Assembly (NCBI GenBank): GCA_030645475.1 | Contig: JAUSMA010000029.1 | Span: 1-64,000, forward strand | From: Nitrospirota bacterium | GTDB lineage: Bacteria; Nitrospirota; Nitrospiria; Nitrospirales; Nitrospiraceae | Direction of reading: 5' to 3' | Length of the DNA: 64,000 bases | Part shown: positions 2,800-40,251 of the stretch, piece by piece | Position numbering within the stretch: position 1 is the stretch's first letter | Layout of the letters: each line of letters starts with the position of its first letter | Position numbers and translations under genes: made by a program | Notes under the pieces: generated by a model | What the model saw: only the letters and a program-made list of their open reading frames with translations | Databases searched by the model: none | Told to the model about the DNA's origin: nothing

Positions 2800-3501
2800 A
2801 TGCAGGTTCGGAAGGGAAACAGGAACATTGGAGTCAGGTCTGCCGTAGTTGCGATCATGCTGGGGCTCGCTGTCTGTGGTGCATCGCCGGCTTCGGCTGA
2901 CGAGAGTATTGGCGCCGGCAACCAGGTGTTCTTCCGGGGGGGCGCTGCCGGGATGAATAGTAATCGGTCGGGCGAGGTGTTCACAGATGTGTACAGTGGT
3001 GCCGGTAGGAGCGGCCGAAGCAACGACAGTACGGCTGGCTACTATGTCGGGGGAGGCCTGGATCTCCTGATGCACAAGGATTTCCTGGGAATCAAAGGCA
3101 TGTCGTTGCTGGGAGAAGTCGGGGTGGAGTTCAAGAGATGGAATTCCAATACCGTCAACCAAGCTGTACCGACTGTGGCTGGCGCCACAGGAGCAACCGT
3201 GACCGATAAAGTCCAAATGACCATGCTGACGGTGGATATCGCGCCGAAGCTCAAATTCATGGAAGGGAACAAGTTCCGTCCCTGGGTCATTCCGGTCGGA
3301 CTGGATTTTCACGTGATCAGCCCGCCGTCGAATCAGTCGCAGTATCTGGACATTGGTGTGCAATTCGGAGCGGGTTTCGAATACAACTTCTGGGGGCCGC
3401 TCAATCTCGGGGTGGATGCACGCTATCACTTGGCGTCCAATCAAACCAACACCGTGAACAGCTATGGCACGGCGGGCGCGTATTTGGGGATACTGTACTA
3501 A
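2800..3501 (+). CDS. Outer-membrane beta-barrel protein
   Basis: This 233-residue protein has a signal peptide (cleavage expected after ASPASA, about residue 34). A glycine- and aromatic-rich, alternating hydrophobic pattern follows and ends in a strand close to the C-terminus (AYLGILY), typical of small OmpA/OmpW-like barrels. GGGAGGGG precedes the ATG. It is monocistronic in appearance, with the next gene 64 nt away. The substrate or partner is unknown. The barrel assignment is an inference from composition and strand pattern. Confidence 0.75.
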   Translation: MQVRKGNRNIGVRSAVVAIMLGLAVCGASPASADESIGAGNQVFFRGGAAGMNSNRSGEVFTDVYSGAGRSGRSNDSTAGYYVGGGLDLLMHKDFLGIKGMSLLGEVGVEFKRWNSNTVNQAVPTVAGATGATVTDKVQMTMLTVDIAPKLKFMEGNKFRPWVIPVGLDFHVISPPSNQSQYLDIGVQFGAGFEYNFWGPLNLGVDARYHLASNQTNTVNSYGTAGAYLGILY

Positions 3502-3565
3502 ATCATAGGCGACTATCTTTTTGAACTAACTCGTGGCGAGCGGATGAAGATCATCGGGAGCTAAG

Positions 3566-4120
3566 ATGCAACTCGTCGTCCACATTCCATATCTGGTCGA
3601 CGAAGACAGCGCACGAGCCTTGGGCCTAGCCCAGCAGGCTCCGAGCTTCACGATGAAATGGGTCGATGCCCGGAAGGTGGCGATTGGGATGTTCCCGTCG
3701 CTGCCGTCTGGCATCGACCTGGCGATTCAGCTCGTGGGCGAAACGGTTAGACTGTCCGGAGCCTGGGCGAGCATGAACTCGGAGCGAGTTTCGAGTTTAA
3801 CCAAGCTCTGGCAGCGACTGAACTGTTATCGTGACAGTCTGAACGCGCAGGATCGCGAGCGGTATTGTCTGCAGAAAACCGCCTTCTTCAATACCCTGGT
3901 GGGGTGCGAAGGGCATCGGTGTCCTGTCTCGTGCCAGTTTATTTGCACACCCTGTATGCGCATGACCCAGGACCAGTCCTCTGTCGATGGAGAGGATCGA
4001 TTCACGGTCGCGACGGAGCTGGCAGAAATTTCCTGGTGCCCGAACCTCAGCCTGTCGGGGCCAAGCAGTCAGGCCGGACGTCCACTTCTCACCATTGACC
4101 CCAGAATGACGAGCGGGTGA
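3566..4120 (+). CDS. Hypothetical cysteine-containing protein
   Basis: This 184-residue protein has no recognisable domain. The middle contains a cysteine cluster, CEGHRCPVSCQFICTPCM at about residues 113-130, which could bind a metal or an Fe-S cluster, although spacing does not match a known motif. There is no signal peptide. GGAG lies 5 nt before the ATG. Its stop overlaps the GTG start of the CopD-like membrane protein by 4 nt, implying translational coupling and perhaps a joint role in metal handling. Confidence 0.55.
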   Translation: MQLVVHIPYLVDEDSARALGLAQQAPSFTMKWVDARKVAIGMFPSLPSGIDLAIQLVGETVRLSGAWASMNSERVSSLTKLWQRLNCYRDSLNAQDRERYCLQKTAFFNTLVGCEGHRCPVSCQFICTPCMRMTQDQSSVDGEDRFTVATELAEISWCPNLSLSGPSSQAGRPLLTIDPRMTSG

Positions 4121-4617
4121 TCGGTGGATTGGTTGCGGCGATGATCGTTCTCCTGGTCTGGTTCCATATGCTTGCGGCGGTCGCGTGGATTGGCGGGACG
4201 ATTTTCTTGTCGGTGGTGCTCGTGCCGGTGCTTCGAGGTGAAGCGTTTGCTTCACAGAGATCGTTGCTCTTTCGGACCACAGCTCGGCGATTTCGCGCGG
4301 TGGTGTGGAGCGCTATTGCCGTTCTCCTCCTCACGGGCCCTCTGTTGCTGCATCAGCGGGGGATCCCGATTGCAGACCCATCAGGATGGCCGACGGTCCT
4401 GGCAGCCAAGCTGGGGCTCGTGGCGATCCTTTTTTTGTTGACGCTGACCCACGATCTCATCCTCGGACCTCGCGTCGGGAAGATACGACAACTCCCTGTG
4501 GAGAGCCGAAGCAGGTTCGATCAGGCCCTGGTTCTGTGGTCTCCCTGGGTGGCTCGCTTTTCACTCGCTCTTGCGCTGGTCATCTTACTTGCCGCGGTCC
4601 TGCTTGTGCGGACCTAA
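4117..4617 (+). CDS. CopD-like integral membrane protein
   Basis: This 166-residue protein has four predicted transmembrane helices, at about residues 5-30, 65-80, 92-112 and 142-164. The first helix carries WFHMLAAVAWIGG, the histidine-tryptophan signature seen in CopD-domain and related heme or copper membrane proteins. It starts with a GTG inside the stop of the previous gene (GTGA overlap), with an alternative ATG at 4141. Copper transport or a membrane redox role is possible but unproven. Confidence 0.65.
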   Translation: MIGGLVAAMIVLLVWFHMLAAVAWIGGTIFLSVVLVPVLRGEAFASQRSLLFRTTARRFRAVVWSAIAVLLLTGPLLLHQRGIPIADPSGWPTVLAAKLGLVAILFLLTLTHDLILGPRVGKIRQLPVESRSRFDQALVLWSPWVARFSLALALVILLAAVLLVRT

Positions 4618-5105
4618 CAGGACGCTAAGAGGCCGCCATTGTCACCTCCCCCAGCCCTCGGTGCGCCGTGCCCGCCAGCGTGCGTGGTACGTGAAGTACA
4701 ATTAACAGGCAGGTTGCCCTGAATCTGTCTCGTCTATGTGGTCCATGTGGCCCGTCTCATGTGCTTGGTTGAAGCAGGCAAACCACTTAAACCGCGCGTT
4801 CAATAAGTGGAGTCAGCCTCTCGCTGGTATTTACTTGGACTCATAGCCGTCGCATCAGGTGTGGGCGTCATTCTGAAGAGAAATGGCATGCGCGGCCTGG
4901 GGCTTACCAAAGATCGCCTGATGGATTGATGATGCTGCCGACTCAGAGATCCGGGTTGATTGGCGCTTCGTAGGGGGATTGAAGTCCAAGGGAAGGTGAG
5001 CGATTTGCCCAACTGGCCCTTCAGATAGCTCCCTTTCTTGTCTCGCTCCATGCAGGTCGTGAGGGAACACTCCAGGGGAAACCTCGTATCGATTGACGCG
5101 TCGCA
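4618..5105. other. Intergenic region with no supported gene
   Basis: This is the gap between the 3' ends of two convergent units. I see no ribosome-binding site with a credible ORF and no T-tailed hairpin. Around 4724-4755 lies a pyrimidine-rich string (GTCTCGTCTATGTGGTCCAT) that recurs in variant form near 23173 and 38468, so it may be a short dispersed intergenic repeat. Confidence 0.5.
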
Positions 5106-6236
5106 TCATCGGTGCCTGAAGACAGGTGTGCCGACGGGAGTCCCCGCGACAGCCCCTGCTGAGAGTGAAGCCTCGTGCGTAGTGACGCCATCGATCGCAT
5201 CAGACAGAAATCTTGGCATCGTGTGCGCACGAGACCGCAACCCACGCACCGTACTCAACGAGTCCGCAAACAGAGAGGGGGAATGGTCTTGCCGCATCAT
5301 ATGCTCGACAAATCCGTCAAGGAGGGAGAAATTTTCCGGTGTCATGCCCTGCATATTCCATATGGACATATTGCGCGGAAAGGATTGCCGATTCGCATGG
5401 ACAAACTCGTGGGGGTGGCAATAGAACACCAGTCGTGAAGCACGTCGGAATATCCGGCGGACCATCCACTTCATCACCGGCAGGCCGAGCACTCTGAGCG
5501 TGGCCATATTGATAGGGAAGAGGAGCGCCGAGGGGGCCATCTCAATGATCGAGCTGTGTCCAGGCACGCGAAGGTGGCTTGATGAAAGACGATACGGCTC
5601 ACTCGGAGCACGAAAGTATTTCAGGTAATGCACCCGCCCAAAGCCGCAATCGAATCGCCTGGCCGGAACAGATGAATCGTAGCGGTATCCCTCGTCTTCG
5701 AGCGCACGCAAAGTCGTTTCACCGATCCACAAGCTCGGTGCGCGAAAGACGACTGGACGAACCCCTGAGGCGTTCTCCACGGCCTCCGTGGCCCTTCGGA
5801 TCCAATCTCGTTGCTGGGTATAACTGGCTGACCTGAAATCCTCGTCGCGCTCGAGACTCCCGTGTTCCCACCCATGAGTACCGAGTTCGTGCCCTCGCCG
5901 CCGGCATTCTCCGATCAGATTTCCATGAGTTTCCGCAAACCGCCCGGCCACAAAGATCGTGGCCTTCATCTTCCATCGGTCACAGAAATCCAGTAAGCCT
6001 TCCAGTCCGACCTGGGACCCTGGAACCCAGTCGACATCGATAGTGAAATGCCACGGCAGAACGGTTTGTGTACGCAGGGGATGGAGATGTAGCGATCCAT
6101 CCAACGGCTCAGAGGGAACTCGCGCCTGAGCCCAGTGGATCGGTTGCTTTTCCAGTACTTGAACCTTCTTGTGCATCTCGGTTTTCGGTATATCTGACGT
6201 GGTCTTCGTATTCACTGTGCTCATCTTGGCTTGCAT
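5106..6236 (-). CDS. Polysaccharide deacetylase family protein (NodB-like, CE4)
   Basis: This 376-residue protein has the NodB/CE4 motifs in order. Motif 1 is TIDVDW (catalytic and metal aspartates near 67 and 69), motif 2 is HELGTHGWEH (metal histidines near 116-125), motif 3 is FRAPS near 164, followed by RYDSS and a late CHPHEF histidine motif near 280. Such enzymes remove N- or O-acetyl groups from glycans or related amides. No signal peptide is visible, suggesting a cytosolic substrate such as a lipid-linked sugar. The ATG at 6236 is preceded by GAGGTG; a GTG 9 nt upstream is also in frame. It is the last gene of the unit headed by the chorismatase. Confidence 0.88.
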   Translation of the reverse strand: MQAKMSTVNTKTTSDIPKTEMHKKVQVLEKQPIHWAQARVPSEPLDGSLHLHPLRTQTVLPWHFTIDVDWVPGSQVGLEGLLDFCDRWKMKATIFVAGRFAETHGNLIGECRRRGHELGTHGWEHGSLERDEDFRSASYTQQRDWIRRATEAVENASGVRPVVFRAPSLWIGETTLRALEDEGYRYDSSVPARRFDCGFGRVHYLKYFRAPSEPYRLSSSHLRVPGHSSIIEMAPSALLFPINMATLRVLGLPVMKWMVRRIFRRASRLVFYCHPHEFVHANRQSFPRNMSIWNMQGMTPENFSLLDGFVEHMMRQDHSPSLFADSLSTVRGLRSRAHTMPRFLSDAIDGVTTHEASLSAGAVAGTPVGTPVFRHR

Positions 6237-6261
6237 CGTATTCACCTCAGTGCGCCTCCGT

Positions 6262-7188
6262 TCAGATGCGCGCGTGTTTCTTCGTCCGGTCTTCCTTGAC
6301 CCTCTCTGTCGCCTTCTTGGATTTCCTCCCGACGTCCTCGGCGGACATCAGACAAGTCTGCCGCCGACTACGCCGGCAGACGAGGAGAATTTCATCCACG
6401 TTTGCGACGTCGATCAGACCAGAGGCCCAGGCAAGGCGCGGTTGTAAGAATAGCCCGATGGGGAGAACGAGCCCGTTGTACCAACGCATGGCCTGAGCCC
6501 GTTTGTGAGTCATGCCCCACACGGCGAAGTCCAGGAGCCAGCCGCTTCGGGGTTGCATGCCGAATACGGCGCTTTGCTCAAGCACAAAGGCATGTTCTTC
6601 GAGGATGGCCAGGAGCTCGCCGGGGTCATAACGTCGAGCGTGGCCGACGAGGGCGTCGAAGCCTGTCCAGCGGTCTGGATGCAGTGGTACCGAAAAGATG
6701 ACCGTCGCATCGTCCTTCGCCACCCGACTGAGCTCGCGAAAGGCCTGCCGGTCATCCTCGATGTGTTCGACGATGTCGAAGGCACAGACGAGGTCAACGC
6801 TGCAATCGGGGAAGGGCAGGGCGGTAATTTCGCCGAGCATCGCGTGACCGCCGCAGGACTTCAGACCGGAGAGCGCCAGCCGGCTGATGTCGATAAAGGA
6901 CGTACCCAGGATAGGGAGTCTCGGGCGCAGGCCTGGGCCGATTTCGAGTCTCGCCGGTGCCGAGGCGGCGAGTACGGCGAGCAGCGGCCATGTGTTGAAG
7001 CGATGCGGCAGAACGACATGGCTTCCTGCCCAGAGTCCGTCGTAGAAGTTCTGGTTGATGGTCGCAACGGTCGGGCGCGTCGCCTCCTGCACCTGGCTGA
7101 TCGGCGTGAGGCCACCATAGGCAGAGCCCGCGGTCCCCGCATTACTATGTTGACTATGGCTAAGCTCTCTTGAGGCGATTAGGCTCAT
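6262..7188 (-). CDS. Class I SAM-dependent methyltransferase
   Basis: This 308-residue protein has a Rossmann-type SAM site: motif I LEIGPGLRPR near residue 81, a DIS acidic position, and VDLVCAFDIVEHIEDD (motif IV, Methyltransf_11 style) near 130-146. A basic C-terminal tail (SKKATERVKEDRTKKHARI) is unusual. The start overlaps the 3' end of the chorismatase gene by 29 nt and has no clear ribosome-binding site, so translation is probably coupled. Seventeen codon-scale bases (25 nt) separate its stop from the deacetylase start. The acceptor is unknown; an aromatic or glycan product of the neighbouring enzymes is the natural guess. Confidence 0.85.
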   Translation of the reverse strand: MSLIASRELSHSQHSNAGTAGSAYGGLTPISQVQEATRPTVATINQNFYDGLWAGSHVVLPHRFNTWPLLAVLAASAPARLEIGPGLRPRLPILGTSFIDISRLALSGLKSCGGHAMLGEITALPFPDCSVDLVCAFDIVEHIEDDRQAFRELSRVAKDDATVIFSVPLHPDRWTGFDALVGHARRYDPGELLAILEEHAFVLEQSAVFGMQPRSGWLLDFAVWGMTHKRAQAMRWYNGLVLPIGLFLQPRLAWASGLIDVANVDEILLVCRRSRRQTCLMSAEDVGRKSKKATERVKEDRTKKHARI

Positions 7189-8344
7189 ATTGGGACATCA
7201 TAGGTTCGTGGAGATGGGCAGGAGGTGGCGACACTGTTCGATTCACGTCAATGGTCGATTCTTGACTCAGGACGCCTTCGATCTCCAGCAATAACTCGCG
7301 TCGGCACATCTCTCCTTGAAGATACAGGACCTGAGCATGGGACGGTAGCCGGCTTTGGAGGACGTTGCGGATCGCCGAGGCATGCTCCGGGTGTCGGACA
7401 TACGTCTTGAAGAGGGCCTGCCCGGACCACTGCCCGCGAGAGATTCCATGAAGCCGCTCTGTCTGCGTGAGTAGTGCCTTCAGGTTGTAGAGTATTTCGA
7501 GCGTCTGTTTGTGAGGCTCGCCGATGTGAGCACTGATATGACCGACCACGCTTGCCGTGCCGGCGATGAGCAGATTGGCCCCGGAGACGGAGGGTCGTAG
7601 GGTGGCTCTCGCGAACGACGGGCTGCGCGGACCGTACACAGGAGGATACTCGTACGCGCGCACCTGGCGTGGATTTTCGACATGCGTTCCCGGAAGCTTG
7701 GCTGCCAGAAAGTGGATGCTCAGCGGGCCGGACAATGTCCCGACGGCGGTTCCCGCAGGCAGGGTGCGAGGGAAGCCAGAAAGGCCCTCGGCCAAGGCCT
7801 GGTAGCGGCCGGCGCAAAATTGTTGGTATCGTTCAAGCCCGTTGGATTCACGGTTGATGTGGGGGAAGTAATTCCACATCCGCAACAGATGAGGGTAGCC
7901 CAGGGCACGGGTTTGGACGAGCAGGCGTCGATAGGCGTTGTAGGTCACGGTATCCAACTGCGTGCCCGGGCGTTCTTCTACGTGCAATGCGCCAAAGAGC
8001 ACCTCATCGTTCATGGCGCAGTGGATGTCCTCGGCCTGGTGATAGGTGACTGGCTGGGTGCTCGCCCATATCTCGGCCAACGGAGGCCCGTTCAATTGTG
8101 GAAGATCGAGGTAGACAACCGGGCAGGCACCGGAATCACGGGGCTCCCCGTGATTCCGGTCATGACGGACGATACCCAAGACGTGAGAGGGCAAGGCCTT
8201 CAGAAGTGTGTCGAGCCGAGTAATCTCCACATATTCCATGCGGAACGCATGCGCAGTGGATACTGGGATAGGCGGAGCGGGCGTGACTAGGGGCCACGTA
8301 AGGCCGCGTTCCACCACACATTGGTTTGACTTGGTTCGGCTCAC
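7160..8344 (-). CDS. Chorismatase family protein (FkbO/Hyg5/XanB2-like)
   Basis: This 394-residue protein resembles chorismatases, which hydrolyse chorismate to hydroxybenzoates or a dihydroxycyclohexadiene acid plus pyruvate. Supporting blocks are LLRMWNYFPHINRESNGLERYQQFCAGR split over residues 152-179, NPRQVRAYEYPPVYGPRSPSF near 223-243, AGTASVVGH near 258, LYNLKALL near 285 and the terminal ELLLEIEGVL containing the conserved glutamate. The GTG start at 8344 has GGAG 8 nt upstream; an ATG at 8239 would remove 35 residues. It is the first gene of a minus-strand unit with a methyltransferase and a deacetylase. Which chorismatase subtype (3-HBA, 4-HBA or diol) is not decidable by eye. Confidence 0.78.
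   Translation of the reverse strand: MSRTKSNQCVVERGLTWPLVTPAPPIPVSTAHAFRMEYVEITRLDTLLKALPSHVLGIVRHDRNHGEPRDSGACPVVYLDLPQLNGPPLAEIWASTQPVTYHQAEDIHCAMNDEVLFGALHVEERPGTQLDTVTYNAYRRLLVQTRALGYPHLLRMWNYFPHINRESNGLERYQQFCAGRYQALAEGLSGFPRTLPAGTAVGTLSGPLSIHFLAAKLPGTHVENPRQVRAYEYPPVYGPRSPSFARATLRPSVSGANLLIAGTASVVGHISAHIGEPHKQTLEILYNLKALLTQTERLHGISRGQWSGQALFKTYVRHPEHASAIRNVLQSRLPSHAQVLYLQGEMCRRELLLEIEGVLSQESTIDVNRTVSPPPAHLHEPMMSQYEPNRLKRA
8129..8160. repeat. Perfect inverted repeat inside the chorismatase gene
   Basis: ACCGGAATCACGGG at 8129-8142 and CCCGTGATTCCGGT at 8147-8160 form a 14-bp perfect stem with a 4-nt loop. It lies in the coding sequence for the segment around HDRNHGEPRDSG, and could be a small palindromic insertion kept in frame. 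Confidence 0.8.
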
Positions 8345-8559
8345 ACCCTGATCTCCACTTGTGGTCGACGCGGCGGGAAGGCCGGCGAATTCACCGGGTC
8401 ACTCGTGACCCCGGTCACCTCTCAGAAGACATCCATCTTGGTACGTCGGTATCACGGGAGAAACCAGTCTCACGTTGCGGCAGGATACCTCCCTCGCGGG
8501 TCATGGACCCCCTTGGGAGATATCCTTGAAACCAGGGCTCGTCGGGTATCACGCTTCGA

Positions 8560-8913
8560 CTACGGAAGCAGCGCGTCTCCCGCGACGTTCGTGTATACCG
8601 GGGTGAAAATGAACCCCAATCCTGGAATGAGATACCACATGACCGACGTGTCAGATTGTACGATCCGTACCTTCGTGGCGCCGACTTTTTTGGCCTCATC
8701 CGCGAAGCTCTGGACGGTCGCGTTGAGTGTGGCGTCTCCCACGATCGGTTTGCTCATGAACAGGTTAATTGCATAGTTCCTCGTGTTGATGTGCGTCAGC
8801 TTGTCGCCGTCAACTCCTTTTATGCCGCGTAAATCACTCGCGGTATCGGTGATGGAGCAGCCGGCGCCAACTCCCATGACTAACACCAGCATCGCCATAG
8901 CGGAATATCTCAT
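8560..8913 (-). CDS. Small lipoprotein of unknown function
   Basis: This 117-residue protein begins with a short charged stretch, a hydrophobic core and a lipobox ending at GAGC (cysteine near residue 19), so it should be lipid-anchored. The rest contains no recognised domain; a second hydrophobic segment (YLIPGLGFIFTPVY) lies near the C-terminus. The start has an AGGAGGGA ribosome-binding site. A CRP/FNR-type palindrome sits 78 nt upstream with a TAGGCT -10-like element, so it is a likely member of the regulon described in the findings. Confidence 0.8.
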   Translation of the reverse strand: MRYSAMAMLVLVMGVGAGCSITDTASDLRGIKGVDGDKLTHINTRNYAINLFMSKPIVGDATLNATVQSFADEAKKVGATKVRIVQSDTSVMWYLIPGLGFIFTPVYTNVAGDALLP

Positions 8914-8964
8914 GGTTCCCTCCTGTGGATGGACACATGCCTGCGCATGTGTAAGTTCTGGTTA

Positions 8965-9008
8965 AGCCTATCTCACAAGCAGTCGGCAATCTGGTCACAA
9001 TTGCTCAC
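8965..9008 (-). promoter_or_regulatory. Candidate class II CRP/FNR-type promoter of the lipoprotein gene
   Basis: On the minus strand GTGAGCAATTGTGACCAG (8991-9008) is followed after 20 nt by TAGGCT (8965-8970). The palindrome matches the identical copies at 13755 and 23353 in 16 of 18 positions and would be centred near -41.5 of the start point. Confidence 0.65.
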
Positions 9009-9207
9009 ATTACAAATTAATGCGGAGTATGCGCAGCAACGTCTACTTGACGATAGTCGGCGAGGGGCGGCTCGCCTGTATTCTTCGGGCAGGGTCGTCA
9101 CGACAATACCCGATGACGGGTTTCTAGCCAGAAGATTTTGGAACCGACGGCTGATAGCAGGCGAAGAGTTACCGAAACTTCCATTGGGGCCAGACCTTTC
9201 CTCCAGA

Positions 9208-9251
9208 CTGAGCAATTGTGATCAGACGCTGAATCGTGCTCAGGGCAGACT
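9208..9251 (+). promoter_or_regulatory. Candidate class II CRP/FNR-type promoter of the DUF3309 gene
   Basis: CTGAGCAATTGTGATCAG at 9208-9225 is followed 20 nt later by CAGACT. It lies 229 nt before the DUF3309 start and is divergent from the site at 8991; the interval between the two (9009-9207) holds no supported gene. Confidence 0.6.
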
Positions 9252-9453
9252 AGACATAGTCCCGATCCGGACGCCGTGCGATGTTCCAGTGCCGGGCGGA
9301 CTTGCCGGTGAAGTTGATGAAGCAGGATCAGAGTCGGTTCGGTGAACGGCTAGAGATAGACCGAAGAGATGTGCTTGTCAGGGGTTCGCGTGGCCCATCG
9401 CTGAATACTATGGTGCGGGATAGATCGAACAGATCCTTAATCGGAGGTGATAT

Positions 9454-9606
9454 GTGAGCACAATACTTCTTGTCATTCTCATCCTTCTCCTTGTCGGCGC
9501 CTTGCCGACCTGGCCTCATAGCGCGAACTGGGGTTATGGCCCCAGCGGCGGACTCAGCTTGGTGCTCTTGGTGTTGCTCATTCTGTTGCTGACGGGTCGG
9601 CTGTAA
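9454..9606 (+). CDS. DUF3309-family small hydrophobic protein, copy 1
   Basis: This 50-residue peptide has two hydrophobic segments around the family core GALPTWPHSANWGYGPSGG, ending LLLTGRL. It starts with GTG after TCGGAGGTGAT; an overlapping ATG two bases earlier leads straight to a stop. DUF3309 proteins are small inner-membrane proteins linked to stress in many bacteria, with no known biochemical role. Two more copies lie at 25637 (intact) and 28850 (broken). It is followed by a BON lipoprotein 65 nt downstream, probably in the same transcript. Confidence 0.85.
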   Translation: MSTILLVILILLLVGALPTWPHSANWGYGPSGGLSLVLLVLLILLLTGRL

Positions 9607-9671
9607 CGGCTGCTTCACTATCTTCATAGGGCCTGACGGGCGCTCACGTGAGCAAAGAGAGGACTATTATC

Positions 9672-9980
9672 ATGATCCGAATTCCAAACGTTCTGATGAC
9701 GCTAGCTGCTTCCAGCTTGCTTATCATCGGTTGCCAATCGAATCCTCAGACCACGGGGCATTATATCGACGACGCGGGCATTACGACGGCGGTGAAGGCG
9801 CATCTTGCTACGGACGGTCCGCTCAAGACGATGACACAGATCAGCGTCAAGACCGTCGAGAACACCGTCTATCTCACCGGCGTGGCGGCAACTCCGCACG
9901 ATAAGAATCGAGCGGAGGAGATTGCACGCCAAGTGGAGGGGGGTTACACGGTTGTGAATAACATTACCGTTCAACCGTAG
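9672..9980 (+). CDS. BON-domain lipoprotein
   Basis: This 102-residue protein has a lipobox (LLIIGC, cysteine about residue 19) and a single BON domain (about residues 32-100: DAGITTAVKAHLATD to GYTVVNNITVQP). BON domains bind phospholipid surfaces and are common in osmotic-stress proteins such as OsmY. The ATG at 9672 follows AGAGAGG; a GTG 24 nt upstream is in frame but would extend before the signal. It lies downstream of DUF3309 copy 1 and is probably co-regulated. Confidence 0.87.
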   Translation: MIRIPNVLMTLAASSLLIIGCQSNPQTTGHYIDDAGITTAVKAHLATDGPLKTMTQISVKTVENTVYLTGVAATPHDKNRAEEIARQVEGGYTVVNNITVQP

Positions 9981-10308
9981 TGTTTGTCAGCGTTCAGCCC
10001 CGATACTCAAGTCAGCACTCTTCGGGGTGCATCGCCGGTCTAGCCTTTCCGACAACGACCGGGTTTCCTCTTTCATGTTGAATGGCCTCACCTCGGATAT
10101 GAACGAGAAATGGCACTAGTTGTTGTGCGCACAATCAAACCAGTCTGAGTTGCTGCCGCATTATTCTTGAATTGAAAGTGCCTAGCCGCGCAGATCGTCT
10201 TCTCCGAATCGAAACAAAATCCGCTGTTCGCTCCGCGCGTTGCGGAAAACGGCCGAGTGAGGCCGAGGTCCTATCGTATCATTGCCCTGGCGATTCAGCG
10301 GGAGCCTG

Positions 10309-10516
10309 CGATCTGTTGCTTGCCCACGTCGGGAGAGTCAATAAGCCTGAGACGGTTCATCCAAAGATCAGTCAAGGTATGCTGGCGGACATCGCCGGTA
10401 GTACGCACTGTCGCGTCAGTTGCTTCACGACTACGTTCCGCAAATTGGGCTTCATTGACGGCACCTGCGAGTTAACCGTACACAATTGCCCTCCTCAACA
10501 TCGTCCTTCACGACTA
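10309..10516 (+). pseudogene. Remnant of a CRP/FNR-family regulator (C-terminal HTH)
   Basis: The translated stretch LLLAHVGRVNKPETVHPKIS and what follows aligns with the C-terminal helix-turn-helix of the two larger CRP-like genes in this window. It retains HPKISQGMLADIAG and FRKLGFID, but TRSRV and SFF positions are altered. A frameshift then separates it from ALLNIVLHDY at about 10488-10520, the family C-terminus. The sensor domain is missing. It is therefore a decayed 3' fragment rather than a working gene, and it lies directly upstream of the palindromic promoter at 10591. Confidence 0.75.
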
Positions 10517-10590
10517 CGTCCCCTGTCATTATCGGTGCCTTCGTTCAGCGAAGGTGCGATCTTGCATGCCTTGAATAATATTTTTCAGAC

Positions 10591-10634
10591 CTGATCAGTT
10601 TTGACCAGCCTGGAATTAATCTACACGTCAGACT
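10591..10634 (+). promoter_or_regulatory. Candidate class II CRP/FNR-type promoter
   Basis: CTGATCAGTTTTGACCAG at 10591-10608 is followed 20 nt later by CAGACT, the same spacing and hexamer as at 9208. It lies 134 nt before the ATG of the SmbP-like lipoprotein gene. Confidence 0.6.
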
Positions 10635-10741
10635 GTAATCAGAGCTGAAGGGATTGCAGCAAGCGGTACTGGCTGCGCTGATGCGGTGACCGGGTTCAAT
10701 TCATTGTTTACAGGTTCTAACCGATTCAAGGAGGTGTCCCC

Positions 10742-11176
10742 ATGAGACAGGTCAAGAAGATTGGCGCATTCGCGGGTGGGTGCATGTTCGTGCTGACATT
10801 GGTTGCCTGCTCGTCGATGACGAGCGCACCAACGATCGACCCGAGCGTGAAGCATTTGCAAAAAGAGAATGCGTTTTATGACCGGAATGTCAACGCAGCC
10901 TATAACCATGCGCGAGCTGCCGAGATCGCAGGGGGCCAGGGCAATAACGGCTTGCTCGTCCACCATGCACAAATAGCCTTGGGGCAGGCGCAAGAGGCGC
11001 AACGGACAGGAAGTAATATGCCACTGGACGAGGCAGTCATGTCGCTGAGGAAATCGGTAGAAGAAGGCCAGCAAAATGCCACGCAAGATGCGATGCAATC
11101 TGCGAAGGATGCGCGCGAGAAGCTCTCGCATGCGGCTGACGTGCGCATCGTCGAAAGCGCCAATAAGATCTCCTAG
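10742..11176 (+). CDS. Lipoprotein with SmbP-like helical repeats
   Basis: This 144-residue protein has a lipobox (TLVAC, cysteine near 23). A helical region follows, with spaced histidines and alanines (NHARAAEIAGG, VHHAQIALGQAQ) resembling the small metal-binding protein SmbP of nitrifiers. A metal- or polyamine-buffering periplasmic role would fit, but the histidine density is lower than in SmbP, so this is tentative. AAGGAGG lies 8 nt before the ATG and a CRP/FNR-type palindrome lies upstream. The csbD gene follows 137 nt downstream. Confidence 0.75.
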   Translation: MRQVKKIGAFAGGCMFVLTLVACSSMTSAPTIDPSVKHLQKENAFYDRNVNAAYNHARAAEIAGGQGNNGLLVHHAQIALGQAQEAQRTGSNMPLDEAVMSLRKSVEEGQQNATQDAMQSAKDAREKLSHAADVRIVESANKIS

Positions 11177-11313
11177 GAGGCTGCACATGGAGAAGTGGCC
11201 GGCGGAAAGCTGGAGAGGCAAGCTGTCAGGAAATCGAGTGGCAGTGCCTGTTCTGCTGCTTCGTCGGCCTGTAGAAGTCGTAAATTCACATGACCCAATC
11301 AAGGAGGTGCAGC

Positions 11314-11541
11314 ATGAATGCAGATCAACTCAAAGGAAAATGGATGCAATTCAAAGGGGAACTGAAACAGCAGTACGGCAAGTTCACAGATGACGACCTG
11401 ACGCAGATCGAAGGCAATTACGATAAGTTCGTCGGCAAAGTTCAGGAACGGTACGGCGACAAAAAAGATGAGCTCATGAAATGGGCTGACCAATGGCATC
11501 TGAAGTCCGCGCCGGATACGACGAAGATCAAGACGCATTAA
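11314..11541 (+). CDS. CsbD-family stress protein, copy 1
   Basis: This 75-residue hydrophilic protein carries the CsbD core (KGKWMQFKGELKQQYGKFTDDD, QIEGNYDKFVGKVQERYG). CsbD proteins accumulate under general stress in many bacteria; their activity is unknown. AAGGAGG lies 6 nt before the ATG. It is followed 65 nt later by a double-BON protein, and the same csbD-BON order is detectable in a collapsed form at 23464-23747, so the pair was duplicated as a unit. Confidence 0.92.
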   Translation: MNADQLKGKWMQFKGELKQQYGKFTDDDLTQIEGNYDKFVGKVQERYGDKKDELMKWADQWHLKSAPDTTKIKTH

Positions 11542-11606
11542 CGGAAAGTCATCAAGACGAGAGAGAGATCGCTGGGCAATTTCACATTTCAGTGAGGGGG
11601 AAGACA

Positions 11607-12164
11607 ATGAACACAGGTTATGTACTGACACTTTGCACGGCCCTGGTTGTTGGTGGGGCATTCATCACCGGAGCAGTGACCGCTGCGGACAAGGCCGCAG
11701 AGAAGACTCCGATCAATGACACGTGGCTCACGGCGAAAACGAAGATCGCCCTTGCTGCCGATGGTCGGGTCAAAGGGCGGCACATCGATGTCGAGACCAC
11801 GAAGAACGTCGTAATGCTCCGAGGCAAGGTCGATTCCGACGCGGCCAAGCAGGCGGCGGAGGGCATTACCAAAATGCTTGATGGCGTCAAGACAGTGAAG
11901 AACGACCTCGAAGTGGTGGCTCCATCCAAGCGTGAAGCGGTGGAGGAGAAGGATGAGGCTATTACGGTACGCGTCCAAAAGAAGATTGCGAAGGACGCAC
12001 ATCTGAAGAAGGCTGATATTGCCGTTCAGACCAACGCGGGAGTTGTCTCGCTGACTGGCGAGGTCAAGGACCTCATGACCAGCGCTAATGCGTCCTGGAC
12101 GGCTTGGTTCGTGCCGGGGGTGAAGTCCGTGAAGAACGATCTCACGGTGAAAGAGAAGGCCTAA
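11607..12164 (+). CDS. Exported protein with two BON domains
   Basis: This 185-residue protein has a signal peptide (to about AVTAADKAAEK) and two BON domains, at about residues 35-105 and 115-180, each ending in the VKSVKNDL/VKTVKNDL motif. Layout and length match periplasmic OsmY-like proteins that bind membrane surfaces during osmotic stress. The ATG at 11607 follows GAGGGGGA. Co-transcription with csbD is likely. A 3' fragment of a close paralogue survives at 23713-23747. Confidence 0.9.
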   Translation: MNTGYVLTLCTALVVGGAFITGAVTAADKAAEKTPINDTWLTAKTKIALAADGRVKGRHIDVETTKNVVMLRGKVDSDAAKQAAEGITKMLDGVKTVKNDLEVVAPSKREAVEEKDEAITVRVQKKIAKDAHLKKADIAVQTNAGVVSLTGEVKDLMTSANASWTAWFVPGVKSVKNDLTVKEKA

Positions 12165-12551: not shown

Positions 12552-12668
12552 GTCGGCGGTGGAAATTCAAGCATAGAGAGCGGGCCAGTCTTTAGGATTG
12601 GCCTACTGTGCTCAAGAAGAGTTGGCCTTCTCGTCATGAGAGGGGGCCAACAGCAGGAGGGTTGTCTT

Positions 12669-13085
12669 ATGCGCATCATGACGTTGACTAGGCTTGTGGG
12701 GGCATTGGTTCTGGCAGGCGTCGGGCTCGTTACGACTGCCTGTAACACGTCCAAAGCCACGGTCGATACGTTCGCCAAGTTTACATCGAGCACGAGTCCT
12801 GGGGAGATGTTCGATGCCGATGGCTACGTCAAGCAAAGCCAAAAGGCGCGTCTGTTTGCCGCGGTCGCGTTCGAGAATCTTGAGCAGGACATCGCACGCG
12901 GGAATGGAGAATATCTCGCATCGTTGGACTTGTTGCTGGACATTCCAGCCGCGGAGCAGGAGGAGTTTAGGACGCGCGCTCAGAGCGCATATCCCTTCCT
13001 ATTCGCGTCCAATCGGCGGACGGCGGAAGGCCTATTGGCTATGCTGGCCCGCCAAAGAGCAGACGACCGAACCGACCGACAATAA
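12669..13085 (+). CDS. DUF3015-like lipoprotein
   Basis: This 138-residue protein has a lipobox (LVTTAC, cysteine near residue 25). The conserved-looking core SSTSPGEMFDADG and ENLEQDIARGNGEYLASLDLLL resembles DUF3015 proteins of unknown function. CAGGAGGG precedes the ATG at 12669; an earlier in-frame ATG at 12636 lacks a ribosome-binding site and would place residues before the signal peptide. It belongs to the small exported-protein cluster. Confidence 0.75.
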   Translation: MRIMTLTRLVGALVLAGVGLVTTACNTSKATVDTFAKFTSSTSPGEMFDADGYVKQSQKARLFAAVAFENLEQDIARGNGEYLASLDLLLDIPAAEQEEFRTRAQSAYPFLFASNRRTAEGLLAMLARQRADDRTDRQ

Positions 13086-14190: not shown

Positions 14191-17100
14191 ATGAAGGTCC
14201 GCAGCAAGATCAATCTCAGCAGCTTGCTCCATCTGAGAGCAAGCTTTCCTGAAAACGATTTGGCAGAAAAATACGCCGGTGGCGAGCCTCCGCTGCGTTC
14301 GGAGCTTTTTAGCGCCGATCAAATGGAACAACATGGCAAGATTTTGGCTGGTCAGCACCAGTTAAGTCCGGGACAGGCCCCAGACCAGCTTCTAAGCAGG
14401 CTGGCTGAGAATGAAGACGTGCTGGTCGGCGTGCGCGATCTGTTGGCCGAAGCGGTCAAGGCGAACCGCCGGATTACGCCGGCGGGGGAATGGCTGCTCG
14501 ATAATTTCTATCTCATCGAAGAGCAGATTCGCACGGCCAAGAGACATTTGCCCAAGGGGTACAGCCGGGAGCTGCCTCGCTTACTGAATGGCTCATCGGT
14601 CGGGCTTCCACGTGTGTATGCCATCGCGCTTGAAACGATCTCGCATGGCGATGGACGAGTCGATCCGGGAAGCCTCAGCCGTTTCGTGGCGGCCTACCAA
14701 ACGATGACCAGCCTCACGTTAGGCGAATTATGGGCCATCCCGATTATGCTCCGCCTGGCCCTGATCGAGAATCTCCGGCGCGCAGCCACGCGCATCGCCG
14801 CGCACAGGATCGACCGTAATCGCGCCGACTACTGGGCGGATCAGATGATGGAGATCGCCGAAAAGGATCCCAAAAGTCTGATTCTGGTGACAGCGGATAT
14901 GGCGCGGTCGAGCCCGCCAATGGCGAGTGCGTTTGTAGCGGAGTTCGCGCGCCGGCTGCAGGGACAGAGCCCCGCATTGGCGTTGCCCCTCACCTGGATC
15001 GAGCAGCAGCTCTCCGAGTCCGGCCTGACGATTGAACAGTCGGTGCAATCGGAAAACCAACAGCAGGCCGTCGATCAGGTCTCCATCAGCAACAGCATCG
15101 GCAGTCTCCGGTTTCTGGGCACGATGGACTGGCGCACGTTCGTTGAGACGATGAGTGTGGTCGAGCAGACGCTGCGGGAGGATCCCGCAGCCGCCTACGG
15201 CAAGATGGACTTTGCGACCCGCGATCGCTACCGCCATGTGGTGGAGAAAATGGCGAGGAGTAGCCGGCTCTCCGAAAGCGAAGTGGCGCGCCATGCGATC
15301 CGTCTCGCGCAGCAGAGCGCGAGCGGGCATGGCGGCGACCGTCGAGAAATCCATGTTGGGTTCTACCTGATCGACAAGGGGGTGCCGCAGCTCGAACGAA
15401 CGGCAGAGGTGCGCCTCTCCACATACGACGCGCTTCAGCAAGCGAGCAGCCGGGTTCCGTTGCTCCTGTATGTCGGCACGATCGCGTTGATGACGGGGGG
15501 CTTCACCGGCGGCTTGCTGGCACAGGTGTCTATCGAGGGTATGGAGGGTTGGGTCCTCGCGCTGGCCGGCCTCCTGTCCCTGCTCGGCACTAGTCAATTG
15601 GCGGTGGCGCTGGTGAATTGGCTTACAACAAGGCTGGTGACACCACATGCGCTGCCGCGACTGGACCTCACCGGCGGCATCCCCCCGGAGTTGCGCACGC
15701 TGGTCGTGGTTCCGACGATGCTGAGCAGCATTGAACATATCGATGAGCTGACCGAAGCGCTCGAAGTCCGGTTTCTGGCCAATCGAGACGAATACCTATA
15801 TTTCGGCCTGTTGACCGACTTTCGAGACGCGCATGAGGAAACACTTCCTGAAGATGAGCCCCTCTTGCGGCTGGCTCAGAAGAGAGTCGAAGCGCTGAAT
15901 GAAAAGTACAGAGAGGTGACGCGCGATGCGTTCTTTCTGTTTCATCGCCCCCGCCGGTGGAATCCTGAGGAACGGATCTGGATGGGATATGAGCGAAAAC
16001 GAGGAAAACTTGCCGACTTAAACCAGCTGCTTCGCGGTGGCTCACCGGATCGCTTCTCACTGATCGTCGGTGAGACGACCGTGCTGTCGAACGTGCAATA
16101 CGTGATCACCCTCGACACGGATACACAATTGCCGCGCGATGCGGCGCGGCAGTTCGTGGGCGCGATGGCACATCCGCTGAATCGTGCGCGATACGACGAA
16201 GCCAAACAGCGGGTCTGCGAAGGATATGGCATCCTGCAGCCACGCGTCGCCGTGAGCCTCCCAGGCACGAGCCGATCGCACTATGCGCGACTCCACGGGA
16301 GTGAGCCAGGTATCGATCCCTATACGCGCGCCGTCTCCGATGTCTACCAGGACCTGTTCGCTGAAGGTTCGTTCATCGGTAAGGGGATCTATGAGGTAGA
16401 CGCGTTCGAACGCGCCCTCGCAGGCCGCTGTCCCGAGAACCGGATTCTCAGCCACGATCTGCTGGAAGGATGCTACGCGCGGGCTGGGCTGTTGAGCGAT
16501 GTGCACTTATACGAGGAGAATCCCTCTTGCTACAGCGTGGATATGAGCCGGCGGCACCGCTGGATCCGTGGAGATTGGCAGCTTGCGGGGTGGATCCTGC
16601 CGCGCGTCCCAGGTCCCGGAGGGCGGCGTCAGAAGAATCCGCTCTCCGGACTGTCTCGATGGAAGCTCTTCGATAACCTCCGGCGAAGTCTCGTCCCGTC
16701 GGCATTGACCCTCCTGTTGCTGCTCGGCTGGACGGTCGTATCCCCGTTCTGGTTGTGGACCCTGTCGGTGATCGGCATCGTCCTGATTCCTCCTATACTC
16801 GCCGCGATTCTCGATCTGTTTCAGAAGCCGGAGGATGTGTTGCCGGAGCAGCATGCCGCCACCGCGCTCCGCACGGCCGGCCGCCACGTCCTTCAGACGG
16901 TTTTGACGATCGCATTCCTTCCCTACGAGGCGTTCGTCAGTGTGGATGCGATTGTGCGCACGATCTGGCGAATGGCGGTCACGCAGACACGACTGCTGGA
17001 GTGGAGCCCGTCAAGTCACCCGGATCTCGATCGCCGCACAGACCTCGTCGCCTACTGTCGGACGATGTGGCTCGGACCCGTTCTTGCCACGGCCGCAGTG

Positions 17101-20100
17101 GTTTGCCTGGCGCTGTCGGAGCCGGGCGTCTTCGGTGTCGCGATGCCCATCCTGAGTCTCTGGTTCACCTCCCCTGCGATCGCGTGGTTTATCAGCCAAC
17201 CGATCGTTCGGCGCGACGCGAATCTGACGGCCGACCAGACGATCTTTCTTCGGAAGCTCGCCCGAAAGACCTGGGCCTTCTTCGAGCAGTTCGTCGGGGC
17301 GGGTGATCATTGGCTGCCGCCTGACAATTATCAGGAGCATCCCGTGGCCGTCGTCGCGCATCGCACGTCGCCGACGAATATGGGGCTCGCGCTGCTCGCG
17401 AATTTGTCCGCATACGACTTCGGCTACCTGTCGGTCGGACAACTCATCGAACGCACGTCGAATGCGCTCCACACGATGAAAGCGTTGGAGCGGCATCGGG
17501 GGCACTTTTACAACTGGTACGACACGCAATCGCTGAAACCGTTGCTGCCGACCTATGTGTCGACGGTGGACAGCGGAAACCTTGCAGGCCATCTGCTGAC
17601 ACTTCGGCCGGGTCTGCTCGCACTCCCTGATCAGAAAATCCTGGGGTCGCGATTCTTCGACGGGCTCAGCGACACCCTCAGGATCCTCGAAGATAGGCTC
17701 GGGGGAGCCATTCCGGTCCAACTCGCGCACTTTCAGCAGCATCTGGATGCTGCCTGCGAGACCCGGCCAACGACGCTTACGACGGCGCGGCTCTGTCTCG
17801 ACCGGCTGGCGACGACCGCCGAGGAGATACACTCGAACGTGAAGGCGGTCCCTGAGAGCCAGGCGGCCTGGTGGGCGCGCGCACTTGCCCTGCAATGCCA
17901 AGACGCCCTCGCGGATCTCATGTTTCTCGCTCCATGGGCCTTGCTGTCGGCCTCACAGAACAGGCTTATCGAATGTGGCGACATCGACGAGATCCCCACA
18001 TTGCGAGAATTGGCGCGCCTTGACGAGGTGTGTCTACCGGCCATCGAACATCGAATGGACCTGGAGCCGACGCATGAGGGGAATGCATGGGTTGATCGTC
18101 TGCATGCACTCATCGCGGAGGCTAGCCAGCGCGCGCGAGAACGAATCGCGGCGGTCGAAGCCCTGGCACGTCAAGCCGGTCACTTTGCGAATGTGGAATA
18201 CGATTTCCTGTTCGACAAGGGCTGTCATTTGCTCGCGATCGGCTACAACGTCGGCGAGCGCCGGCGGGATTCGAGTTACTACGATCTGCTGGCGTCGGAG
18301 GCGAGATTGTGCAGTTTCGTGGCAATTGCACAGGGACAACTGCCGCAAGAAAGCTGGTTTGCGCTCGGGCGTCTCCTCACGACCGCCGGTGGAGGGTCGG
18401 CACTGATCTCGTGGAGCGGGTCGATGTTCGAGTACCTCATGCCGCTGTTAGTGATGCCGACCTACGAGAACTCCCTGCTCGACCAAACCTGCAAGGCGGC
18501 GGTGGAGAGACAGATCGAATATGGCAGGCAGCGCAGCGTCCCGTGGGGCATTTCGGAATCCGGCTATAACATGATCGATGTGCATCTCAACTACCAGTAC
18601 CGCGCGTTCGGCGTGCCCGGACTGGGACTCAAACGCGGGCTGGCCGACGATGTCGTGATTGCACCCTATGCCTCGGCGCTTGCGCTGATGGTGGCGCCCG
18701 AGGCGGCATGCCTGAATTTGCAGCGGCTCTCGGCTGAAGGAGTTGAAGGACCATTCGGGATGTATGAAGCGATCGACTATACGCCTTTCCGGCTCCCACG
18801 CGGGCAATCGAGTGCCGTGGTTCGATCGTACATGGCCCATCACGAAGGCATGAGCTTGCTATCCCTGGCCTACCTGCTCCTGGACCGTCCGATGCAGAAA
18901 CGATTCGAGTCGGATCCCATGTTCCAGGCGACCACGCTGCTGCTGCAAGAGCGGATTCCAAAGGCCACGGCATTGTATTCGCCCACTGTCGAGTTGTCCG
19001 ACGTCCAGACGGCTGCCAGTGGATGGGAGACGCCGGTGCGCCGATTCAGCAGTCCGCACACGCCGATCCCGGAAGTCCACCTATTGTCGAACGGCCGGTA
19101 TCACGTGATGATCACGAATGCAGGTGGCGGCTATAGCCGTTGGAGGGACCTCGCCGTGACACGCTGGCGGGAAGATAGTACCTGCGACAACTGGGGGACG
19201 TTCTGTTACATCCGCGACGTGACGAGCGGGGAGGTCTGGTCCACGGCTTATCAGCCGACACTTATGCCACCGAAGTCCTACGAAGTCATCTTTTCCGAGG
19301 GACGGGCTGAGTTTCGCCGGCGTGACCACGATGTCGAGACGTATACCGAAATCGTGGTGTCTCCGGAAGACGACATCGAATTACGTCGAACCCGCATCAC
19401 CAACGGCTCAAGGATTCGCCGAACGATAGAGATTACGAGTTACGCAGAAGTCGTGCTCGCCTCACCTGCGGCAGACGCCCTCCATCCGGCGTTCAGCAAT
19501 CTTTTTGTGCAGACCGAGATCGTTCGCGAACAACAAGCGATTCTCTGTACGCGCAGGCCCCGCTCCGTCGACGAACACTCGCCATGGATGTGTCATCTCA
19601 TGGCCGTGCATGGAGCAGACGCCGGAACGATGTCCTACGAGACGGACCGCCTCCAGTTCATCGGCCGCGGCCACACCACCGCCGATCCGCAAGCCATGGG
19701 CGGATCCGGCGCGCGACAAGGGGCTGTGGCGCTGTCCGGCAGCGAGGGCTCCGTGCTCGATCCGATTGTCGCCATCCGGTGTCGGATTACGCTCGATCCT
19801 GAAGAATCGGCCACGATCGATCTGGTGACCGGCATCGGCGACACTCGCGACATCTGTCTGGGCTTGGCTGAGAAATACCACGATCGGCGACTGGCCGACC
19901 GCGTCTTCGATCTGGCCTGGACCCATAATCAGGTGGTCATGCGGCAGCTGAATGCCACCGAGGCCGATGCGCAACTCTATGGCTGCCTGGCCAACTCTAT
20001 CCTCTACGCCAATTCCTCCCTGCGGGCCGACCCGAGCGATCTGATCAAAAACCGCCGCGGGCAATCCGGGCTCTGGGGCTACGCGATTTCAGGCGATTTG

Positions 20101-39258: not shown

Positions 39259-40251
39259 GTGTGGGGCCGTTGTAAGATTCGAGCCATTCAGGTGAATGTC
39301 TGTTGGGTGTTGGTGCTGGGGGTTGTACTGTGGGTGACCGGGGTGTCTGTGGCCCGGGCGGGTGACGCCGAGGGCGAGAAGGTGGCTCCTCCTGTCGATT
39401 GTCGATACGAGTCAGCCACTCAGGGCTCTGCGGCAGAAGGCCCTGATTCGACGGTGAGTATTCCCTTCCCCGGTGGCGATGTCTTTCGTCCGCTCTTTGC
39501 GGACCCGAAGCAGCCGCAGACGTTCGCAACCTTACAGGCCGTGAGGAACCGAGACTCAAAGACCTCGACCACGGTGGGATCGGTCGGGTTCGGAGAGAAC
39601 TTCGGATTCTATTCGCGCCGGGACGGCTGTAACGGATGGCAGGTGGGGCTTCTGGCCGGTGTCTTCTCTCAATTCGATATGAATGCGCCGTCCTCAGACC
39701 TCATCAATACCGATTACGTGGTCGGTATTCCGGTGTCCTGGCGGAGCGGCCTCTTCTCGACGCGTGTGCGCCTCTATCATCAGAGCACGCACTTGGGCGA
39801 TGAGTTTGTGCTCCATAATCCCGGAGTCGGCCGGGTGAATTACAGTTATGAAGAAGCGGAAGCGATTTTGTCCCTGGATGCCCCTGGCGGCTGGGGCCGC
39901 CTCTATGCCGGTGGCGGATACTTACTGCATCGCGAGCCGGCCAACCTGGACCGGTTGAAAGTCCAGGCAGGGGTCGAACTGCGAGGGCCGACGTGGAGCA
40001 GCGGTCCGATTGAACGATTCGTGAGCGGGCCGCTCGTCGTGACCCCGGTCCTCGGGGCGGACTTCAAAACATTCGAACAATTGCATTGGACCCTCGACGT
40101 GAATGTCGTGGGCGGGCTGGAATTTGCGCGGGCTGGAGCACTACGACGGTTCCGAGTCCTCGTCAACTACTATCACGGCAACAATCCCTATGGGCAGTTC
40201 TATGGGCAGAAGGTTGAAAGTGTGGGGCTCGGTATTTATCTGGCGTTCTAG
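39259..40251 (+). CDS. Exported DUF1207-like protein
   Basis: This 330-residue protein has a signal peptide (cleavage after SVARA) and a beta-rich body with the DUF1207-like FPGGDVFRPLFADPKQPQTF block near 73-92. GRLYAGGGYLLHREP and a C-terminal strand follow, suggesting an outer-membrane barrel. GGGGGAG lies 6 nt before the GTG at 39259, making it a better start than the ATG at 39241. The stop is followed at once by dispersed repeat copy B. Confidence 0.8.
   Translation: MWGRCKIRAIQVNVCWVLVLGVVLWVTGVSVARAGDAEGEKVAPPVDCRYESATQGSAAEGPDSTVSIPFPGGDVFRPLFADPKQPQTFATLQAVRNRDSKTSTTVGSVGFGENFGFYSRRDGCNGWQVGLLAGVFSQFDMNAPSSDLINTDYVVGIPVSWRSGLFSTRVRLYHQSTHLGDEFVLHNPGVGRVNYSYEEAEAILSLDAPGGWGRLYAGGGYLLHREPANLDRLKVQAGVELRGPTWSSGPIERFVSGPLVVTPVLGADFKTFEQLHWTLDVNVVGGLEFARAGALRRFRVLVNYYHGNNPYGQFYGQKVESVGLGIYLAF

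Follow-up and report, generated by a model that had tools for sequence, protein, structure and literature searches.

The closest described system is the biosynthesis of arcuflavin, a xanthomonadin-type pigment of Azoarcus sp. BH72, for which two unlinked loci are reported, both of them needed for the pigment (PMC3949708). As described there, the arc loci include the halogenase arcA, the chorismatase arcB and the methyltransferase arcM, the latter next to the PS-deacetylase arcN. In vitro, 3-hydroxybenzoate (3-HBA) was formed only with the ArcB enzyme, while 4-hydroxybenzoate (4-HBA) also formed without it, and arcuflavin carries a methionine-derived methyl group (PMC3949708). For Xanthomonas, the same paper describes XanB2 as also supplying 4-HBA for coenzyme Q, and 3-HBA as a diffusible factor.

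The aryl-polyene (APE) core of E. coli, in the account given in PMC8253772, is of the same kind as the one discussed below, with ketosynthases, dehydratases, a ketoreductase, an acyl-ACP synthetase, ACPs, an RND transporter and an acyltransferase. The gene table of that paper lists no chorismatase and no CE4 deacetylase, the 4-HBA starter being given as an early ubiquinone intermediate. It is also proposed there that ApeB, a methyltransferase, methylates the aryl head and that the polyene is joined to its lipid anchor by an acyltransferase and a glycosyl-/acyltransferase (PMC8253772). In Nitrospira, antiSMASH aryl-polyene clusters are reported for N. inopinata, N. lenta, N. japonica and N. sp011405515 (PMC9765116), and Nitrospirae are listed among the phyla with KS-CLF hits (PMC10132072). 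Our search of the open-licence PMC literature returned no paper joining a chorismatase with Nitrospira.

Here we describe a chorismatase operon of Nitrospira that shares with the Azoarcus arc loci, as listed in PMC3949708, both the split into separate loci and, taken together with a second locus of the same genome, the chorismatase, halogenase, methyltransferase, PS-deacetylase, glycosyltransferase, acyltransferase, ketosynthases, dehydratase, AMP-ligase and ACP. The likeness to ArcM and ArcN is one of gene listing. In Azoarcus the chorismatase and arcMN are placed in different loci, whereas here they form one operon, with a second chorismatase in the core cluster. Compared with xanthomonadin and XanB2 of Xanthomonas, the operon belongs to another phylum, lies away from the core and has the methyltransferase and the CE4 deacetylase directly attached. 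It looks like a known kind of system in an unusual arrangement rather than a new system.

Results

Organisation of the operon

The stretch of DNA analysed, hereafter the window (64,000 nucleotides), is Nitrospira DNA. It is the initial 64 kb of a 151-kb contig, C29, in an assembly of 3.75 Mb with a completeness of 99.92, and its closest relatives on named contigs are Nitrospira MAGs. The ORF coordinates bear out the three same-strand genes announced by a sequence-only reading of this DNA, all on the minus strand with the chorismatase first: a chorismatase of the FkbO/Hyg5/XanB2 family (7160-8344, 394 aa, GTG start; PF21168, 4.5e-37), a class I SAM-dependent methyltransferase (6262-7188, 308 aa; PF08241) and a CE4 polysaccharide-deacetylase family protein (5106-6245, 379 aa; PF01522, 2.4e-18). 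Because the first two genes overlap by 29 bp and only 16 bp separate the methyltransferase from the deacetylase, a single operon is likely. The chorismatase ORF is intact. In support of its GTG start, the related loci L034 and L022 have an ATG in this position, ahead of the same SRTKSN stretch.

Upstream of the chorismatase, also on the minus strand, lies a small gene (8560-8913) that we call lipoprotein-like from a reading of its sequence, as it has no family match. A relative of it, 68-98% identical, precedes the chorismatase in all 13 other intact window-type loci, being partial at a contig end in L043. The sequence-only reading had mentioned neither this gene nor the second chorismatase and the aryl-polyene cluster found elsewhere in the genome (see below). 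Within the window the operon is isolated; some 6 kb from it, beyond several small genes, a protein of 2912 aa with a GH94 and a glucoamylase domain is encoded (14191-22929). Our scan returned 0 promoter-like sites (1.8 expected) and 5 terminator-like sites (3.5 expected), and the Rfam search of the window gave no match at gathering scores.

The chorismatase and its predicted product

The assignment to the chorismatases, which the sequence-only reading had made, stands. Besides the Pfam match, the window protein matches solved FkbO (4bps) at 6.8e-49, over residues 54-359, and TIGR04444 at 9.4e-69 with 232 bits, below the cut-off of 325 bits of that model; the match to solved FkbO/Hyg5 members spans residues 53-359. 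The structures 5ag3 and 5a3k, both named putative pteridine-dependent dioxygenases in the match table, are taken here to be Hyg5. Glu354 of the window protein corresponds to the catalytic Glu of Hyg5, E334, described as the acid (PMC7170507), and is kept in 18/18 aligned rows. By the same alignments, G262 and C347 correspond to Hyg5 G240 and C327, and in our own mapping Ala200 stands where Hyg5 has Gly173. Among the aligned Nitrospirales rows, G262, C347 and E354 are conserved in 17/17, and position 200 is likewise Ala in all 17, while it is Gly in Caballeronia.

The 3-HBA subtype (CH-II) is marked, according to PMC7170507, by Gly, Gly and Cys (G164, G231 and C318 of Nat-hyg5). The window protein has in common with Hyg5 and FkbO the family, the Hyg5-subtype Gly and Cys and the catalytic Glu, and differs by the Ala200 that, in our mapping, replaces the third residue of Hyg5 type, the first Gly of the series. 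Given this replacement, it may belong either to the 3-HBA subtype or to the mixed subtype (CH-III, that of XanB2), which makes both 3-HBA and 4-HBA. The enzyme would be predicted to convert chorismate to 3- and/or 4-hydroxybenzoate, bearing in mind that the reaction of a chorismatase is reported not to be predictable by alignment alone (PMC3949708). A plasmid search with the chorismatase gave 10 records, all with a query coverage below 80%. The sole beta-proteobacterial plasmid record, from Caballeronia (L058), names an aryl-polyene gene in 0/32 annotated features.

The methyltransferase and the CE4 deacetylase

The CE4 protein of the window carries the stretches FTIDVDW, HGWEH, FRAP and FYCHP, which we take to hold the metal-binding and catalytic residues, and D70, D72, H124, H128 and R168 are invariant in 15/15 aligned rows. 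Its predicted structure matches CE4 folds, including that of ArnD (8t0j); since the model is weak (mean pLDDT 49), these matches only repeat the family assignment. The structure predicted for the methyltransferase (mean pLDDT 33) was too low in confidence for use. In plasmid searches, the methyltransferase returned 20 records and the CE4 protein 160; the 20, and the best 25 of the 160, are all distant relatives with a query coverage below 80%.

The window-type methyltransferase was found in 11/196 Nitrospirales genomes. In five of them it adjoins a chorismatase (G000, G028, G065, G147 and G156); the other six are genomes of another family, f3, whose methyltransferase is 42-46% identical and has no adjacent chorismatase. 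No cluster genes were found in 10-17 kb around the methyltransferase gene of G095, G103, G114 and G120, and a further f3 genome, G097, has no chorismatase and no ketosynthase at the thresholds applied. The methyltransferase is thus not strictly a pigment gene, as these six genomes carry it away from a chorismatase.

A second locus in the same genome

A second chorismatase, 51% identical to the window copy, is encoded on contig C16 of the same genome. The surrounding cluster is preceded (L030, L049) by a UbiE-like methyltransferase, an ACP-like protein (named from its sequence) and an AMP-ligase (a best match under cut-off); after these come a FabA-like protein (22.9 bits, just under the cut-off), a lipid-A-type acyltransferase and an MMPL exporter. 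The ketosynthase (NF006618, 512 bits, over the cut-off) is next to a second ketosynthase-like protein (PF13723). A 147-aa protein with no family match occupies the place expected of the dehydratase, and a ketoreductase and a GT2 come after it. On the opposite strand are a small protein without match, a CE4 deacetylase, the chorismatase and a tryptophan-halogenase-like FAD enzyme. The window-type methyltransferase is absent from this cluster. The matches of the GT2 lie far below the cut-offs, the best being PpgS (polyprenyl-phospho-N-acetylgalactosaminyl synthase) and the third an undecaprenyl-phosphate Ara4FN transferase.

Judged by its gene content, the C16 locus is an aryl-polyene gene cluster. 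The search for such genes elsewhere in the genome, proposed along with the sequence-only reading, has therefore located a cluster, and one with its own chorismatase. The aryl-polyene-type ketosynthase occurs once in this genome, on C16 and not on C29, and three other ketosynthases are 32-35% identical. The remark that no ketosynthase gene is adjacent to the operon also holds at the scale of the window: tblastn of the 64 kb with the core and arm proteins of the relative G147 recovered only the four arm genes. As the core genes are missing from the window and present on C16, the operon does not amount to a cluster of its own and is only a detached arm of one.

Linkage in relatives

We refer to the chorismatase lineage of the window as type A and to that of C16 as type B. 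In five relatives (G147, G005, G009, G018 and G004) no more than 8 kb separate a type A chorismatase and CE4 from an aryl-polyene ketosynthase, so that the related genes are members of aryl-polyene clusters there, four of them in G147 and three in each of the others. The core of G147 (L129) reads ACP, AMP-ligase, acyltransferase, an ORF without assignment, MMPL, ketosynthase, second ketosynthase, dehydratase, ketoreductase and GT2; 116 bp past the GT2, and convergent with it, follow CE4, methyltransferase, chorismatase and lipoprotein, which is exactly the set of the window. In G005, G009, G018 and G004 the CE4 is 1.6-3.1 kb from the GT2 end of the core, and the lipoprotein-like gene is present.

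Altogether 14 intact type A loci were compared, with chorismatase and CE4 as neighbours in 14/14. The adjacency of the three genes, which the sequence-only reading had offered for a conservation survey, is seen in 8 of them, from 7 genomes (window, G028, G011, G147, G065, G156 and two loci of G023), and all three genes are open in each. One of these 8 loci is linked to a core (G147) and 4/8 are unlinked by a genome-wide ketosynthase search (window, G028, G065 and G156); in these four genomes a second chorismatase lies 5.3-5.7 kb from a C16-type ketosynthase, being partial in G156. No core was seen in the 20 kb examined of G011, and the G023 contigs are short (4.0 and 6.9 kb). The remaining 6/14 loci have chorismatase and CE4 only (G188, G005, G017, G004, G009 and G018); 4/6 are linked to a core, and those of G188 and G017 are on contigs of 5-6 kb. 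In G187, a broken type A chorismatase stands beside a type A ketosynthase and another chorismatase is intact, where an assembly error is possible.

Identical records were counted once (G156/CG24D and G188/L022 are the same contigs; G095/OFTM313 and G114/OFTM334 have identical proteins). G011, G018 and G023 are outside the order sample, and the ketosynthase was sought in their fetched stretches only. ORFs came from a simple script, which can miss genes; tblastn was therefore used to check which loci lack the methyltransferase and that the lipoprotein-like gene is there. We also considered whether the core had simply been deleted from between the operon and the GH94 gene, as suggested by G009, where a GH94 protein 85% identical ends about 600 bp from the ACP. 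This reading was set aside in view of the differences in gene order and orientation.

Co-occurrence, phylogeny and selection

In a survey sample of 196 Nitrospirales genomes, the chorismatase (E <= 1e-20) was found in 42 and the ketosynthase (E <= 1e-90) in 52, with both in 39 (Fisher p = 2.7e-26, shared ancestry being ignored). The ketosynthase is thus present in 39/42 genomes with a chorismatase, compared to 13/154 without; the exceptions are 13/52 ketosynthase genomes without chorismatase and 3/42 chorismatase genomes without ketosynthase. The chorismatase gave 48 matches: 32 have the ketosynthase within 12 kb, one has it 641 kb away, and for the other 15 the contig carries none.

In maximum likelihood trees the type A chorismatases form one clade, of 15 rows with support 100/99 in a first tree of 40 rows, which excludes the partial, stop-bearing and locus-less matches among the 48, and of 14 rows (99/99) in a second tree of 21 rows. 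This clade mixes core-linked with core-less loci, and the methyltransferase is present in some of its loci and absent from others. In the 40-row tree, the rows that lack it group in a single nested clade (97/94), which suggested one loss; we did not retain this reading, as the 21-row tree does not resolve the point and a grouping of all methyltransferase-bearing rows is not rejected (p-AU 0.547).

The dN/dS values are 0.24-0.34 for the chorismatase, 0.24-0.32 for the methyltransferase and 0.17-0.27 for the CE4 deacetylase, compared to 0.03-0.06 for the type B ketosynthase. The window arm is under purifying selection and is constrained less than the core.

Discussion

The linkage in five relatives, the co-occurrence with the ketosynthase and the constraint on the genes make it probable that the operon is an arm of an aryl-polyene cluster, of the xanthomonadin/arcuflavin kind, that lacks an adjacent core and likely still acts in trans. 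The idea that the methyltransferase and the deacetylase point to a use other than aryl polyenes is not supported: arcM and arcN are in the Azoarcus loci (PMC3949708), and the same set stands beside the core of G147. Of the aromatic-modified lipid that was also proposed, only so much is supported as follows from aryl polyenes being proposed to be lipid-attached (PMC8253772).

In the scheme that we favour, the lineage of the window would have lost its adjacent core, while in G147 a core still converges on the same arm; a loss of the core, rather than a transfer, would then account for the split. Polyene synthesis would be carried out by the second, divergent aryl-polyene cluster on C16. The window chorismatase would convert chorismate to hydroxybenzoate and pyruvate, with 3-HBA and/or 4-HBA serving as starter, which the AMP-ligase of C16 would load on the ACP for extension by the C16 core. 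The window arm would thus act in trans on that core. The methyltransferase would methylate the aryl head group or possibly another part of the product, the head being the favoured site in this scheme. The GT2 may put an amino-sugar on a lipid, from which CE4 would remove the acetyl group, de-N-acetylating the sugar or the lipid-linked anchor. In the ArnC-ArnD pair, a transferase is likewise paired with a CE4 deformylase, and it is from this pairing and from the C16 GT2 matches, far below cut-offs as they are, that the anchoring step is proposed. Because the ketosynthase is not near the window copy, we infer the present function of the latter in the pathway. The window chorismatase would not be needed on paper, since the C16 cluster has its own. 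A switchable second starter-and-tailoring module, in which a separate hydroxybenzoate pool, another head group and another anchor would let one core make two pigments (or the pool would also serve as a free 3-HBA signal), is an unlikely role for the detached operon in Nitrospira species that have both loci.

The solitary position of the operon in the window, near the GH94/glucoamylase protein, and the diffusible 3-HBA of Xanthomonas described in PMC3949708 would fit a product unrelated to aryl polyenes, either an aromatic compound released as a signal or a modified glycan of the cell surface, as the sequence-only reading had suggested. The small genes that separate the operon from the GH94 gene, the core found near the same genes in five relatives and the co-occurrence of the chorismatase family with the ketosynthase (39/42 genomes) all count against these options, and we regard them as very improbable. 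A supply of quinone precursor had been put forward too; here the window chorismatase would be freed to make 4-HBA for methyl-plastoquinone while the C16 copy serves the pigment. Methyl-plastoquinones are reported in Nitrospira (PMC12324825), and XanB2 gives a precedent. The look-up of ubiC found none in the genome by PF04345, the PF01947 chorismate lyase is in 0/32 Nitrospira genomes, and a 4-hydroxybenzoate prenyltransferase of UbiA type is present in the genome, scoring just above its cut-off (280.9 vs 275.45 bits). This UbiA is, however, on contig C14, away from the operon, and the CE4 partner has no obvious role in quinone synthesis. The futalosine menaquinone marker PF02621 was not found in the genome. 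UbiA is in 29/32 Nitrospira genomes and the chorismatase in 12/32, all 12 with UbiA, so that 17/29 UbiA-bearing genomes, some of them incomplete assemblies, show no chorismatase and the quinone cannot generally depend on it; where a chorismatase is present, it may still contribute. Moreover, Nitrospira may have its own lyase in MpqC, a protein that one paper lists with the homologues used for its trees, alongside a mention of UbiC (PMC13386864). The quinone option is accordingly weak, and we give it little chance.

A redundant relict, that is, an arm that persists after its core has gone and is now decaying without a function, would be in keeping with the second chorismatase on C16, with the broken window-type copy beside the core of G187 (if this is not an assembly error) and with dN/dS values of the arm (0.17-0.34) above those of the C16-type ketosynthase. 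These values are nevertheless well below 1, the three genes are open in 8/8 three-gene loci and G262, C347 and E354 are retained throughout the aligned Nitrospirales rows, which makes decay hardly probable.

With the operon read as a detached aryl-polyene arm, a locus proposed for a glycan, a quinone or a signal moves into a known pigment pathway. The nitrifying Nitrospira have two divergent versions of this pathway, whose loci are whole, stranded from their core or broken, and the recurrent pair of CE4 and GT2 suggests a way, open to testing, in which the polyene may be anchored.

Genes in the neighbourhood of the operon

The small genes adjoining the operon span 9648-12161 of the window on the forward strand, with BON-domain genes at 9648-9980 and 11493-12164 (both +) and a gene with a small metal-binding protein domain at 10742-11176 (+). 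Another window gene, at 12636-13085 (+), encodes 149 aa and has relatives in the stretches L132, L133, L134 and L137, with an identity of 31-41% over short stretches only. In each of the four f3 loci examined, such a relative adjoins the distantly related methyltransferase gene.

The protein encoded at 14191-22929 (+), of 2912 aa, matches GH94 and glucoamylase domains, and we take it to be cyclic beta-glucan synthase-like; the observation also covers 3248-12052 of the stretch L053. In genome G009, some 600 bp separate the end of an 85% identical relative from the ACP gene of a type A aryl-polyene core. In several type A loci the CE4 gene is followed by that of a DUF1207 outer-membrane-like protein, of which the window holds a 34% identical relative at 39397-40248 (+).

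Copy number and integrity of the chorismatase genes

The single MAG G023 carries the three-gene unit twice (L039 and L043), together with a third, partial chorismatase; these extra copies could be due to duplication or to mixed strains (listed contamination 6). In G187 the type A chorismatase is in pieces in the uncorrected sequence (contig C4, L136, 10459-11190) and adjoins a type A ketosynthase, with the CE4 gene there still open, and a second, intact chorismatase lies at another site. The break could be an assembly error. Thirteen genomes of the order survey (e.g. G037, G080 and G083) have an aryl-polyene-type ketosynthase and no chorismatase at the thresholds used (E <= 1e-90 and E <= 1e-20, respectively).

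Supply of 4-hydroxybenzoate

Chorismate lyase was not recognised with PF04345 in the window's own genome or with PF01947 in 32 genomes, and these models point to no clear 4-HBA source for the methyl-plastoquinone of Nitrospira. The window's own genome encodes a UbiA-type 4-hydroxybenzoate prenyltransferase (contig C14, 182542-183378; L138, L143).
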